Shown: positions 21,277 through 25,968 of the stretch, one piece after another | How positions within the stretch are numbered: the first letter of the stretch is position 1 | Layout: each line of letters begins with the position of its first letter | From: Methylohalobius crimeensis 10Ki | GTDB lineage: Bacteria > Pseudomonadota > Gammaproteobacteria > Methylococcales > Methylothermaceae | Assembly: GCF_000421465.1 (NCBI RefSeq) | Contig: NZ_ATXB01000001.1 | Location: forward strand, 744,001-808,000 | Length of the DNA: 64,000 nucleotides | Reading direction: 5' to 3' | Program-made: the position numbers and the translations under genes | Notes under the pieces: model-generated | What the model saw: only the letters and a program-made list of their open reading frames with translations | What the model was told of the DNA's origin: nothing | Database searches by the model: none

Positions 21277-22002
21277 TCAGGAAGAAAACAAACGGCGCCG
21301 AATCGCAAGCAATCCCAAAGAGATAAGGGTCAGAATGCTAGGTTCTGGAACCGGATTGGTTGTGTTCGAAGTGACAGAACCTTGAAGGTTAAAGGCCATC
21401 TCGTTACCGATGCCGAATGTCCATGAGTCACCATCGTTAACCCTACCGTGGGCGTTTCCGCTGGCATTGGAGGTCGACCAGAACCAGTCGTCGATTTCGT
21501 TTGTGGTGTCATTTACGATGGATAACCAGTAGGAGCCTGTGGCCAGGTTGGGCGGGGTATCCAATGTCAGTGAGTATTTGTATACATCAAAAGTACCATT
21601 GAAAAATAATGAAGAAACGGTAAAGTCGTCGCCGGTATCAGTCTGGGTCAAGGTCCCGATCAAAGGGGAAATCGAAGTTGTACTGGCCGGAACGCCGGCG
21701 GTATCAGGGAAGATGCGGATGGTGAAGTTGTCGCTAGCTGAGGCAGTGTTGGATGAAAAGTAAATTCCCCACCATTCTATGCTGTTTATGGTGGTCTCAT
21801 CTGTCAGCAAGAAGTCATCGGCGCTTTGTTTTTGAAGGCCGAATAAAGAAGGTGTGTAATCAAAATCACTGGGCTTTGCATCTATCAGATCTGGAGTACC
21901 ATTGTCGATGGTGACCGGCATGCCCTTGACCAAGTTTGCAGGAGCTAACCAAATGATACATGTGAACAACAATGGCAACGACAATTTGTATTTATTTTTC
22001 AT
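21277..22002 (-). CDS. PEP-CTERM sorting domain protein
   Basis: A secreted 241-residue protein with an N-terminal signal peptide (about residues 1-27) and a C-terminal PEP-CTERM tail: VPEP, a hydrophobic helix, and a basic RRR cluster four residues from the end. Such tails are recognised by an exosortase, which cleaves near PEP and hands the protein to the cell surface or matrix. The middle is rich in Ser, Thr, Asp and Asn and has a beta-sandwich look (WWGIYFSSN, YWLSIVND). No exosortase gene is in the window. The region is visibly AT-richer than its neighbours. It follows the next upstream secreted-protein gene by 14 bases. Confidence 0.85.
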   Translation of the reverse strand: MKNKYKLSLPLLFTCIIWLAPANLVKGMPVTIDNGTPDLIDAKPSDFDYTPSLFGLQKQSADDFLLTDETTINSIEWWGIYFSSNTASASDNFTIRIFPDTAGVPASTTSISPLIGTLTQTDTGDDFTVSSLFFNGTFDVYKYSLTLDTPPNLATGSYWLSIVNDTTNEIDDWFWSTSNASGNAHGRVNDGDSWTFGIGNEMAFNLQGSVTSNTTNPVPEPSILTLISLGLLAIRRRLFSS

Positions 22003-22016
22003 GGCTTTGAATCCTG

Positions 22017-22469
22017 TTAGCAACTTCCAGACAATCCGCCAGTGCTCTGGATGACCCCGACTTGTTGAGGGTTGAGACCTAGGCTGCAGAACATGATGGT
22101 CGTGTTGTCCTTAAACATAGTGAATGTGTAGGTTAAGGGATTCTGGCTATCGTAGGTATAACTTACTAAACCTATTGAACTTGTAGAGTTAATGTTTATG
22201 CTCGAGGTGCTCCAGCTTCCTTTTAGGGCTCTGGGGTCCACGGCTAGATTTTTTGGGTCGCCTACCTTATAAAGCTTTCCATTGGGGCAATGTTCTTCTT
22301 TCCATTCTTCTCCTGTATCTAGGTTGATGGCAACGATTGAGCGGCTGTTCAGAGTATTGAGAATTTCTGTCTCACTCATGGGTTGACCGGTACAAGACGT
22401 TGCCATGGCAGCACTACTAACCAAGGACAATAAGATGATATCTGCCGTTACAGGAAGGTGAATTTTCAT
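22017..22469 (-). CDS. Putative secreted protein of unknown function
   Basis: The 150-residue product has a signal peptide ending near AMATS (about residues 1-24) and a Ser/Thr/Asn-rich body with four cysteines beyond it (SCTGQP, HCPNG, FCSLG, GSC at the very end), possibly forming two disulfides in the periplasm or outside the cell. No family was recognised. AAGGGGG stands four bases before the ATG, and a sigma-54-like promoter lies about 40 bases upstream. It is followed after 14 bases by the PEP-CTERM gene, so the two are likely co-expressed. Confidence 0.6.
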   Translation of the reverse strand: MKIHLPVTADIILLSLVSSAAMATSCTGQPMSETEILNTLNSRSIVAINLDTGEEWKEEHCPNGKLYKVGDPKNLAVDPRALKGSWSTSSININSTSSIGLVSYTYDSQNPLTYTFTMFKDNTTIMFCSLGLNPQQVGVIQSTGGLSGSC

Positions 22470-22621: not shown

Positions 22622-25600
22622 TTAACCATGGGTTGATTTGGCTAACTTCGTTAGCCAAATTGCACAATAAATTAGAAAATAAAACAACAACATACTCTGC
22701 GCCGCGTCCATTGTGCTGCCCAGCAAGCTGACGGTGACAAACCCCGCCAGCCCTCCCCCGAACGCTAGCGCCCAAGATTGGCCGTGCCGCCAGTTCGGGA
22801 TCAGAATCCTGACGGTACCGAAAAGCAGCAATGCCAAGGCGATCAAGCCGAGCCAGCCTTGGGCGAAATAGACTTCGATTCCCGCTTGATGGATGTGCCA
22901 GGCGAGATCCCGATCGGTGACGAACAGCCAGTGATTGATGCCTTGTTGGAAACTGCCGTTCTCAATCAGTTTTCGACCAGCGCGATCGCTGAAGCTAATA
23001 TCGTCAACATCGATGGGATGGTCGCCCGCGTTATATAGGGATAGTTTGACCGGGCGGTGAGGCCAAGGGCCTCCACTACCGAGGCTGCCGGAGTTCAGGC
23101 TGATTTCCATTCGCTTCCAAGCGTCGGGAGGCGAGTCCGGGGTGAGCTTGAACCACTGGCACTGGAAGGAATAGAGAAGCGCTTTTTCGCATATCGGGAC
23201 GGTCAGGCCGTCTCCTGGGTTCTGTACGCGGACGCGGGCGTTTAAGCGGTAACGAGTGAACGGCGCCATCGCCACCTGTTGGTCCAAATAGACCGACTCG
23301 CCCGGTAACAGGTGCAAATAACGATTGCCTTCCTCGTCTCGAATGGCGTATCCGCCCGGCGGTTCATTGTAGTCGGCGTAAAGCAAATAATGGGTGGGGT
23401 AGCGCCCAAATCCGGTTCCGGTAAGTTGTGCCAACCATGATTGATCGGTCAGTGCCAAGGCCTGGCGCCAATGCCGCAATCGAGTGTCCAGATCTTCGGC
23501 CGAACGTTCCAGGCGGTAACGGGCGAAGCCTTCGCCGACAATCGGAACGGCCACTGCCGCCATGATCATTCCCGAGATGGCGGGAGCCATCCAACGGCGA
23601 GATTTTCCGGCGTGTCTCCATGCGGTACCGATGACGACCGTCAACAGTCCAACTGCCATGCCGGCGTAGCCGCCGCGTGAAAAGGTGACCAGCATGGCGT
23701 AGCCGGTCATTCCTCCGAGCACGATTCCGGCTAATCGAGCCAACCAGTGAGGTTGGGTCAGTGCCCATATCACTAAAAATGGAAAGGCGAAGGCCAGGAA
23801 GGCTTCAATATAGGCGCCTCCGGTTTGCATGTTGGAGAATGTTCCGGTGACACGAAAGACGCTTTCGAAATTGATCAGCCCCACGAACAGGTAACGTTCC
23901 CACCAAACCACTCCGACTACTATCGCCAAGGAAGTTAGCAAGCCATAGCATACAAGGCTTCTGGCTCGGGGAAGATCCGTTTCAGGAATCCGGCGCAACA
24001 AAGGGACAAGCAGTAGAGCCCAGAGCAATCCCTTGCCCACTTGCCAGGCCATGAAGGGTGAATGGGAGCTGGGTAAAGTCGGGGTTTTGATGGCGGTTTT
24101 CAAGCCGTGATAGGTGGCAAAAATCCAGCTCAACCATAGCAATACGTACGCCGTCTTTAAAAAGACATTTGGCCAGGGACGTAATGGAAAACCGCCAAGG
24201 CGAAGCGGAATCACAGCCAAGGTGAGCAGCACCACCAAGTCGAACTCGTCCAAGTAAAGGCGGCCATGATTCGAAGCAAAGTCCAAGGTTGGCAGCAGCG
24301 CGGGTATGGCGAATAACCAGGCAAGCGGATAACGCCAAAGGATGAGTGCGTAGCTCAGTAGACCGACAAACCAAGCCATTGAGAGAGGCGAGAGCCAGAA
24401 ACTGGCAATCGCTACGACCAACACAACTGCGCCGAAGAAAATCGCTATGGCGGAAGGTAGCTGAATGGTGCGGGCGCATGGTGGCGCGGACGGTTTGATT
24501 TCGACAACGGTTGGGCGGGTATTTCCACTCGTTATCCTTCCCAACCATGCTGCCAAGCTGTAACTGAAAGCGGTGGAAGCGGCAGCGATGAGAAGATTGC
24601 TCAAATCCGGATGCCGGCCTTCCAGCCATAATTTTCCCATTTCCAAAGGGAGCGCCAACCCGGCAGCAGCGAGGGCGGCAGGCTTTGCCCCTCCCCGATC
24701 CGGCAGGCGGCTGCTGCGTCGCCAAGCCCAAAGCGCCACCCCTATCGGAGCGTACATGGCCGCATTGGCGAGCAAGCTGGCCATGGCGGTCGGTTCGGAG
24801 GTGAAATAGTGATAATAAAAAGGGATGAAACGCAAACCGGCAATTTTTGCCAGTCCCTGGGGCAAGGAAAGCCAGGAGGAAGTAAACCAGCCGTTGACGG
24901 CGGCCAGGGTCGGAATATAAGGCAGAGCAAATAAAGGAATTGTCCGGCGCAGCAGATGCGCCATGGTATCCACCCCCCAGCGGAGCATAAGTTGCCCCGT
25001 CATGCCGCCGGCAAACAACCCAATTCCGCGCATTAAAGCGGATGCCCCCTGAGCGGTTCCGGAAATGAGGAAAATCTGGAGAATTTCCAGCCCCAAGCCG
25101 AAACCTAGGCCGATAAAAAAAAGATACCGATATGCGAAATAAGGTCTGATTAGAATCAGTAACAGACCGAGCGGGGCAATTGCCACAAGTTCTCCGATCA
25201 ATCGGGCGACGTAATGAATGCCGCCGCAGGCCGGGGCGATTACCCAACCGACGTTGGCAGAGGCCAATTTGGACAGCAGTTCATCGCCGGAGACCACGAA
25301 ATCGTAGGGAAATAAGGCTAGAATGAAATAAAAAAAGGCATAAGTAATGGCGGCCCCTTGCACCGATTCTCGACCGCCGCGAGTAAAAGAATCCAGAAGC
25401 CAAACGATATGGCGGCGACCGAACAACCACAACCCAATACCTGCGGCGGTACCGAGAGTCTCCGCCAGCAAGTCGTTGAGGGAGACGGTCCGGGGGGCAA
25501 AAAACTGTTGGGTAAATTCCACGGCCACTGCCAGCGCTATGCAGAATGCAAATACAAAGACGAGGATAGCGGCGGATTCCCGGTGGGTTTGACGCAACCC

Positions 25601-25837
25601 CAATAAGGCACCGCAGCCGAGAAAGGCGAGCGGGACATAGAGGACGATATTGGCAATCCAGTCGGCCCGGGAGGCAGCACCCAAGTTTAAATATGCGATG
25701 TTGTGAAATCGGGCGATCGCCTGATCGAGGGTCAAGGGACGAAGCTCAAAGGGAATCAGACTGCCATAAACGACAAAGCCGAGATACAGTAGAAAAAGCA
25801 ACAACAGGCGTCTGCGTTCCAGCGCGGGAGCGAGCAT
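22622..25837 (-). CDS. Large membrane protein: three VanZ-like units fused to an O-antigen-ligase-like region
   Basis: A 1071-residue polytopic protein. Three VanZ-like units appear in tandem, at about residues 15-145, 160-290 and 300-432. Each pairs an N/E..YxP.G helix (IANIVLYVPLAF; GELVAIAPLGL; LANAAMYAPIGVA) with a later E..Q/K helix (VEFTQQFF; LEILQIF; LEMGKLW), although the RxxSxxD motif is clear only in the first. Residues 455-800 and 975-1065 are hydrophobic and carry the Wzy/O-antigen-ligase features TGTFSNMQTGGAYIE and TFSRGGYAGM. Between them, about 820-970, lies a soluble beta-rich domain with the look of a carbohydrate-binding fold. The ATG at 25837 has a GGGGAAA site. A role in exopolysaccharide polymerisation or ligation is inferred. 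It lies near a PEP-CTERM gene. Confidence 0.72.
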   Translation of the reverse strand: MLAPALERRRLLLLFLLYLGFVVYGSLIPFELRPLTLDQAIARFHNIAYLNLGAASRADWIANIVLYVPLAFLGCGALLGLRQTHRESAAILVFVFAFCIALAVAVEFTQQFFAPRTVSLNDLLAETLGTAAGIGLWLFGRRHIVWLLDSFTRGGRESVQGAAITYAFFYFILALFPYDFVVSGDELLSKLASANVGWVIAPACGGIHYVARLIGELVAIAPLGLLLILIRPYFAYRYLFFIGLGFGLGLEILQIFLISGTAQGASALMRGIGLFAGGMTGQLMLRWGVDTMAHLLRRTIPLFALPYIPTLAAVNGWFTSSWLSLPQGLAKIAGLRFIPFYYHYFTSEPTAMASLLANAAMYAPIGVALWAWRRSSRLPDRGGAKPAALAAAGLALPLEMGKLWLEGRHPDLSNLLIAAASTAFSYSLAAWLGRITSGNTRPTVVEIKPSAPPCARTIQLPSAIAIFFGAVVLVVAIASFWLSPLSMAWFVGLLSYALILWRYPLAWLFAIPALLPTLDFASNHGRLYLDEFDLVVLLTLAVIPLRLGGFPLRPWPNVFLKTAYVLLWLSWIFATYHGLKTAIKTPTLPSSHSPFMAWQVGKGLLWALLLVPLLRRIPETDLPRARSLVCYGLLTSLAIVVGVVWWERYLFVGLINFESVFRVTGTFSNMQTGGAYIEAFLAFAFPFLVIWALTQPHWLARLAGIVLGGMTGYAMLVTFSRGGYAGMAVGLLTVVIGTAWRHAGKSRRWMAPAISGMIMAAVAVPIVGEGFARYRLERSAEDLDTRLRHWRQALALTDQSWLAQLTGTGFGRYPTHYLLYADYNEPPGGYAIRDEEGNRYLHLLPGESVYLDQQVAMAPFTRYRLNARVRVQNPGDGLTVPICEKALLYSFQCQWFKLTPDSPPDAWKRMEISLNSGSLGSGGPWPHRPVKLSLYNAGDHPIDVDDISFSDRAGRKLIENGSFQQGINHWLFVTDRDLAWHIHQAGIEVYFAQGWLGLIALALLLFGTVRILIPNWRHGQSWALAFGGGLAGFVTVSLLGSTMDAAQSMLLFYFLIYCAIWLTKLAKSTHG
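22636..22660. repeat. Perfect 11-bp inverted repeat with 3-base loop
   Basis: Arms 22636-22646 and 22650-22660 are exact reverse complements around the loop TTC. The hairpin sits inside the last codons of the VanZ/ligase gene, just before its stop. It may stabilise the transcript end or aid termination, but no immediate T-run follows on the minus strand, so it is not called as a terminator. Confidence 0.5.
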
Positions 25838-25968
25838 AAGTTTCCCCGGAATGCGAATTTTTGTAATTATACTATTCAACCGCTTATTAGCGGTGTGGGA
25901 AGCGTTCGACGATGGCCGACCACTGGATTTAACCCTTCCGCCTCAGTAAGAGAGACGATTTTGTTAAA

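Follow-up and report, generated by a model that had tools for sequence, protein, structure and literature searches.

A triple VanZ array joined to a WaaL-type ligase in Methylohalobius crimeensis, and its possible link to the exosortase A polysaccharide system

Overview

The 64,000 nt stretch of the Methylohalobius crimeensis 10Ki genome analysed here (positions 744,001 to 808,000 of contig NZ_ATXB01000001.1, hereafter the window) carries, on its minus strand, a gene at 22622-25837 whose product joins three tandem four-helix VanZ units to a WaaL-type ligase with the fold of a carbohydrate-binding module (CBM) in its catalytic loop. We tentatively propose, at a little short of an even chance, that this fusion is an inner-membrane, periplasm-facing ligase that finishes or anchors a polysaccharide in concert with the exosortase A (XrtA/PEP-CTERM) system. 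The fusion would bear on the questions of how polysaccharides of the exosortase type are ended and retained by the cell, and of what PEP-CTERM proteins become attached to. A ligase joined to lipid-handling units, together with a co-occurring secreted protein (c1) and lyase-fused counterparts, makes up a small gene set with which the finishing and anchoring of such a polymer could be tested, and the fusion offers a defined pathway in which to assay the predicted chemistry of VanZ proteins.

Domain architecture of the fusion

The fusion gene runs from an ATG at 25837 to a stop codon at 22622, exactly the extent given in the original prediction, and encodes 1071 amino acids (aa). The listed open reading frame (ORF) is longer, at 1085 aa from a TTG at 25879; since the sequence GGGGAAA lies just 5' of the ATG and the nearest orthologues begin close to it, M15 is the likely start. 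Residue numbers follow the 1085 aa ORF throughout, and all the features given with window coordinates lie on the minus strand. A predicted structure of the full chain (predicted local distance difference test score, pLDDT, 81.2; predicted template modelling score, pTM, 0.73) was built with a 27-row alignment, in which the 26 other proteins are 32-57% identical to that of the window and two are near-copies of each other. The first NCBIfam scan and one Pfam scan took in shadow ORFs opposite ileS and lspA. The architecture originally proposed, of three VanZ units, a ligase-like fold and a periplasmic beta domain, is borne out by the profile searches and the model; none of the outcomes named at that time as counting against it, namely a single VanZ unit, the lack of a ligase fold or the lack of a tie with exosortases, was found.

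The VanZ profile (PF04892) scores 67.8 bits on the whole protein (cut-off 30.1; E 1.8e-18), in three stretches when these are counted at E up to 10. In a profile search of the genome, E values of 2.3e-12, 3.7e-4 and 1.0e-4 were obtained for unit 1 (residues 20-168, 25376-25822), unit 2 (residues 169-302, 24974-25375) and unit 3 (residues 303-452, 24524-24973) respectively; when the units are scored singly, unit 1 alone exceeds Pfam's cut-off, with 49 bits. Profile comparison relates unit 1 to unit 2 (taken as residues 169-320; E 5e-7) and to unit 3 (taken as residues 328-452; E 5e-9), a control of unit 1 against the ligase giving E 0.048, and the match between units 2 and 3 is weak (E 0.0018, probability 15%). 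These delimitations draw in addition on residue counts and on the predicted structure, which has four core helices in each unit. The helices, taken with a Lys/Arg-rich N terminus, suggest that the three pockets face the periplasm, and the model suggests that all are oriented alike. No VanZ or PTDSS structure was among the fold matches listed, which is uninformative, as the query was not the array alone.

Each unit has its own set of polar residues conserved in all 27 rows. Those of unit 1 are R71, D73, N77, E121, Q124, R130, S133, N135, D136 and E140, and its 27 invariant columns out of 149 represent the highest density of the whole chain; as mapped by eye, N77, E121/Q124 and D136 correspond to the helix-2 Asn, helix-3 ExxQ and helix-4 Asp of VanZ-1. 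The accessible text of PMC12419801 gives DxDDxxxN as the helix-4 motif of VanZ-1; as SxNDxxxE replaces this in unit 1 (27/27), we label the unit VanZ-1-like, rather than VanZ-1. Unit 2 has invariant D193, E200, E230, E265, Q268, Q277, S280 and R284, with a Ser at the position of the helix-4 Asp of unit 1, and unit 3 has E362, S368, E413, K416 and D425, with ExxQ changed to ExxK; both retain the helix-3 Glu and differ at other pocket positions. That units 2 and 3 are decaying copies was considered and rejected on these residue counts: with a distinct invariant polar set apiece, no unit has the appearance of a dead copy.

The remainder of the protein was originally described as a ligase-like region split by about 150 beta-rich residues, and this description holds. 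The ligase consists of an N-terminal part (residues 477-835, 23375-24451) and a C-terminal part of three helices (residues 986-1080, 22640-22924). Wzy_C (PF04932) scores 43.6 bits (cut-off 31.7; E 5.8e-11), despite which it was not listed by hmmscan of the fusion protein. Residues 512-1081 of the model align with WaaL (7tpg_B; Z 22.2, 358 residues, 4.8 Å), the best fold match as ranked within Foldseek's top 1000. Invariant ligase residues include R735, R800, H803, W804 and a GxGxGxxP motif at 821-828. The two arginines, present in 27/27, align with SRG and RxxxW, two motifs of the TIGR03097 ligase encoded elsewhere in the genome, and are taken as the counterparts of the two arginines of WaaL, for which the accessible text of PMC3643930 names three important residues (R215, R288 and H338 in Escherichia coli). 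The insert itself (residues 836-985, 22925-23374) is a CBM-type beta-sandwich, delimited from the alignment and the model; its best fold match is 4mgq (Z 12.4, 123 residues, 2.5 Å), which its sequence also matches weakly (E 2.5e-4), and it contains an invariant pair of cysteines, C897 and C907.

Association with exosortases

The samples searched include 101 near relatives, M. crimeensis itself among them, an even sample of 369 genomes of the class, and 175 genomes from across the phylum. Some match to the fusion is present in 37 of the near relatives, 19 of which, counting that of the window, have it at full length. The profile matches 25 of the class genomes, with the array part in 23, the ligase only in G401 and the ligase part alone scored in G234; at most two candidates were scored per genome, so second matches may be missing. 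Exosortase (PF09721) is found in all 19 near relatives with a full fusion, against 68 of the 101 overall (hypergeometric 2e-4). In the class sample, 24 of the 25 matching genomes have it, against 125 of the 369 (2e-11). These values, like those for c1 below, ignore phylogeny. The tie with exosortase genomes that had been predicted is evident in the near relatives and in the class sample.

Where both genes lie on one contig, the fusion or array is within 75 kb of the exosortase in 11 of 14 class genomes; in this and the corresponding count for near relatives below, two genomes belong to both samples and some contigs are short. Families of the XrtA system, scoring over their cut-offs, adjoin the fusion or array or lie a few kilobases away in several loci: TIGR03098 and TIGR03099 in L011, TIGR03098 in L059, TIGR03099 in L060, and TIGR03099 about 5 kb from the array in L014. 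In G224, PrsT, PrsR and PrsK (TIGR02917, TIGR02915 and TIGR02916) are located between the fusion and an exosortase 31 kb off, PrsK being about 7 kb from the fusion.

Distribution of the array and its changes of partner

A scan of GTDB genomes yielded ten named loci, eight of which match over almost the full extent of the fusion, including those of Nitrosospira, Nitrosomonas europaea and Accumulibacter, and two of which match in the array only; no match was found in the plasmids searched. The array occurs with varying partners: a fused ligase, a fused heparinase-like lyase, or none within the same gene. In genomes G015 and G047, the array and ligase are separate neighbouring genes. The original interpretation is right in outline but incomplete; its suggestion of a single-chain device is too narrow, as the two parts may also be split or the array may be fused to a lyase.

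All eight of the arrays in our tree labelled as lyase-fused have a C-terminal Hepar_II_III_C domain over Pfam's cut-off, accompanied by DUF4962, above or below its own cut-off. By Pfam, lyase-fused arrays are present in L013, L014, L076, L117, L118, L137 (with its near relative L119), L138 (two genes) and L139. Further arrays are separate genes of about 440-520 residues. Those of G121 and G375 might be thought isolated genes, but this was rejected, because both overlap an upstream beta-helix gene resembling pectate lyase and chondroitinase B; Beta_helix is over the Pfam cut-off in G121, with weak matches below the cut-off in G375. Beta-helix, pectate-lyase-like genes at L140:7347-8798 and L141:10372-11760 have ends that overlap the start of the separate triple-VanZ gene. 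A distinct clade of triple VanZ arrays with an extra C-terminal part is found in L038, L040, L041, L044, L126 and L145; the three of these extra parts that were scanned (L038, L040 and L145) have no Pfam match, and c1 was not found in the genomes of the clade.

When four classes of partner are mapped onto a tree of the arrays, 8 changes are required; the smallest number possible is 3, and shuffling gives a mean of 20.6. Branches with good support demand a minimum of 3 changes for the ligase class and of 4 for the separate arrays. The tree represents 54 of 90 array rows; the rows omitted were near-copies or, for the most part, repeat occurrences of one gene in another locus. It counts G015 and G047 as separate arrays although a ligase gene adjoins each.

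Partners of such differing chemistry would be expected if the array were a mere membrane scaffold or binding platform, keeping ligases or lyases near the lipid carrier, with none of its units enzymatic. The altered pocket positions of units 2 and 3, and the departure of unit 1 from DxDDxxxN, are consistent with this; against it, unit 1 is the part of the chain densest in invariant columns and retains the helix-2 Asn, helix-3 ExxQ and helix-4 Asp. We consider a purely structural role unlikely.

A secreted protein that accompanies the array

The gene next downstream of the fusion (22017-22469), missed in the original prediction, encodes c1, a protein of 150 aa with a signal-peptide-like N terminus and a predicted small barrel. 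Among the near relatives c1 is found in 14 of 101 genomes, every one of which has the fusion or the split form (hypergeometric 2e-12); no more than 500 bp separate it from the array or fusion in 11 of these, and it is elsewhere in three. Likewise, all nine of the 369 class genomes with c1 have an array (6e-12), fused to a ligase in four (G000, G016, G207 and G394), fused to a heparinase-like domain in two (G341 and G436) and forming a separate gene in three (G121, G268 and G375). Of the ten named loci, four carry it (L005, L011, L012 and L014); it was not found at L007 or L010, which hold the orthologues of Nitrosospira multiformis and Nitrosomonas europaea. In a sample around G121, which overlaps the class sample, c1 is in 4 of 114 genomes, all among the 11 with a profile match, and in the phylum-wide sample of 175 the fusion and c1 each occur in two genomes, which are the same for both: that of the window and a member of the class sample. 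The association is not reciprocal, as c1 went undetected in 7 of the 21 near relatives with the fusion or split form and, of the 25 matching class genomes, in 16. Because c1 is also present with arrays lacking a fused ligase, and is retained in G047, where no exosortase was detected, it appears to go with the array.

Ten residues (C26, E58, H60, D78, P79, G84, W86, Y106, C128 and C150) are invariant in all 19 proteins of the c1 alignment (A3), from which members that are divergent or ambiguous were left out, including those of L063, L064, L011, L012, L099 and L092. E58 and H60 form an ExH pair. The c1 of the window has no Pfam match, and the relatives tried have no match in Pfam or NCBIfam. 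Its model (pLDDT 77.8, pTM 0.70) resembles small calycin-type barrels, the best match being potempin E; the fold class is tentative, because the Z of 8.4 is near background. We note separately that the model weakly resembles protease inhibitors of the calycin type, and that four loci (L011, L066, L073 and L074; checked by Pfam in L066) have a gene for a trypsin-like protease close to the ligase or array.

The proximity seen in 11 of the 14 near relatives with c1 would also fit a dedicated protein O-glycosylating ligase akin to PglL, with c1 as its acceptor, given that, in the accessible text of PMC3643930, pilin genes are next to or near those of PglL homologues in 21 of 31 cases. However, c1 also accompanies the ligase-free arrays listed above, whether separate (G121, G268 and G375) or lyase-fused (G341, G436 and L014), for which reason its role as a glycosylation target is marked down; a ligase encoded elsewhere in those genomes would soften this objection. 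Furthermore, no Ser or Thr is invariant in the 19 aligned c1 proteins, and PglL_A (PF15864) was not listed for the fusion at E up to 10, in a scan which likewise failed to list Wzy_C. Such a glycosylation system seems to us improbable.

Proposed function

In the finishing or anchoring role that we favour, the ligase would remove the polysaccharide from its undecaprenyl diphosphate carrier with the CBM holding the chain, and the lipid side would be bound, and probably acted on, by the VanZ array. Unit 1 may be catalytic and the other two units adapted to binding or to another substrate, and the array could either supply a lipid acceptor or process the released carrier. In its lyase-fused form this lipid-handling module might serve to trim or release the chain, and c1 may act as a periplasmic cofactor of the array. 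Since arrays elsewhere are joined to, or overlap, lyase-like genes, the array seems less tied to any single reaction than to the end at which a periplasmic polysaccharide is linked to its lipid. In the accessible text of PMC12419801, VanZ proteins are predicted to act on the phosphate-linked lipid head groups of lipid carriers, and VanZ-1 is linked to WaaL-like and exopolysaccharide genes.

The original prediction had left open whether the polysaccharide is polymerised or anchored; Wzy_C covers polymerases as well as ligases, and the co-occurrence with exosortases would suit an additional Wzy-type polymerase of the exosortase polysaccharide, but the best fold match is the ligase WaaL and the exosortase cluster of the window's genome has its own Wzy_C protein (TIGR03097, 526.9 bits), so that finishing or anchoring is favoured and polymerisation is the most doubtful of the alternatives considered.

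Several observations weigh against a finishing or anchoring ligase tied to exosortase A. The canonical His column of the ligase, 997, is unconserved, with a His in only 7 of 27 rows (a His two residues earlier, H995, is present in 24), and, of five other Wzy_C proteins of the genome that were compared, three aligned with the ligase profile at E <0.001 and two did not. No exosortase was detected in G152, the only such case among the 25 class genomes with a match and one that has an array, nor in G047, which has the split form. Physical linkage is loose amongst near relatives, with only 5 of 16 having both genes within 75 kb when on one contig, and in the window's own genome the fusion is 844 kb from the exosortase. 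There is no enrichment of sigma-54 promoters of the kind reported for PEP-CTERM genes: of 41 upstream regions, three for genes of the window, 17 for c1 and 21 for fusions, none scored 9 or more and 6 scored 8, compared to 11% of random stretches scoring at least 8. The SxNDxxxE of unit 1 is a further departure from expectation, and the VanZ-1 chemistry is itself a prediction. Finally, the proposal is wholly computational.

A more ambitious version, which we regard as a long shot, is that the triple VanZ array and c1 together constitute a lipid-anchoring module of the exosortase A system, in which three specialised lipid pockets of one chain would, by way of a joined ligase, pass a lipid head group on to the polysaccharide, or prepare the polysaccharide for trimming through a joined lyase, with c1 as a periplasmic chaperone of the lipid or chain. 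If true, such a module would account for the attachment point of the exosortase polymer.

Relationship to known systems

The ligase shares with WaaL (PF04932, PDB 7tpg) its fold, Arg motifs and Wzy_C match, but differs in the CBM of about 150 residues in the catalytic loop, the unconserved canonical His column and the three VanZ units in front. Similarly, the four-helix unit is that of VanZ proteins (PF04892; the VanZ-1 lipocone family), with the Asn, ExxQ and Asp of helices 2 to 4 in unit 1; unlike VanZ-1, there are three tandem units with differing invariant sets, and SxNDxxxE in the first. The exosortase A-associated O-ligase PEP_O_lig_1 (TIGR03097) is a Wzy_C protein encoded by a separate gene of the same genome, and the fusion is absent from the TIGR03097 matches at E up to 0.01. 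PglL protein O-oligosaccharyltransferases belong to the same ligase superfamily and may likewise have a small secreted protein encoded next door, but the neighbour of the fusion tracks the VanZ array, not the ligase, and lacks an invariant Ser or Thr. CBM4/CBM16-type modules (4mgq, 2zez) have the same beta-sandwich fold, and the insert has its weak sequence match to 4mgq; in the fusion, however, the domain sits inside a membrane ligase.

In the open-access literature, nothing was found for VanZ with exosortase and PEP-CTERM, for VanZ with exopolysaccharide, gene cluster and heparinase, or for exosortase combined with O-antigen ligase and two further terms; the sole match for a fusion of VanZ to an O-antigen ligase was PMC12419801, the accessible text of which describes duplicated VanZ-1 in betaproteobacteria and names neither a triple array nor a CBM-ligase fusion. 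The parts are of known kinds; no description was found in that literature of a triple array with distinct invariant sets, of its changes of partner or of the co-occurring secreted protein.

Neighbouring genes

The fusion is flanked by murJ and ribF in the genome of the window. Next after c1, and two genes downstream of the fusion, is a gene for a PEP-CTERM protein with DUF7901 (21277-22002; PF07589, 21.8 bits against a cut-off of 20.7; PF25470), whose translation likely starts MKNKY. The original prediction placed the fusion beside PEP-CTERM genes; one such gene is confirmed, and the plural is not. In L057 and L058, from species of the window's own genus, a divergent heparinase II/III-like gene (L057:6849-8933 and L058:6381-8456, assigned by similarity in the former and by Pfam in the latter) lies about 15-25 bp from the fusion ORF; no such gene is at the corresponding place beside the fusion in the window. 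Elsewhere, L036:1429-4800 encodes a ligase-like protein without a VanZ array, fused to a chondroitinase-B/beta-helix domain. Genes belonging to a cluster for ATP sulfurylase and adenylyl-sulfate (APS) kinase are found near the array in L009, L013, L071 and L075 (checked by Pfam in L013), and a sulfatase lies near the exosortase in the window's genome (L129:11470-13626); together these hint that the polysaccharide may be sulfated.

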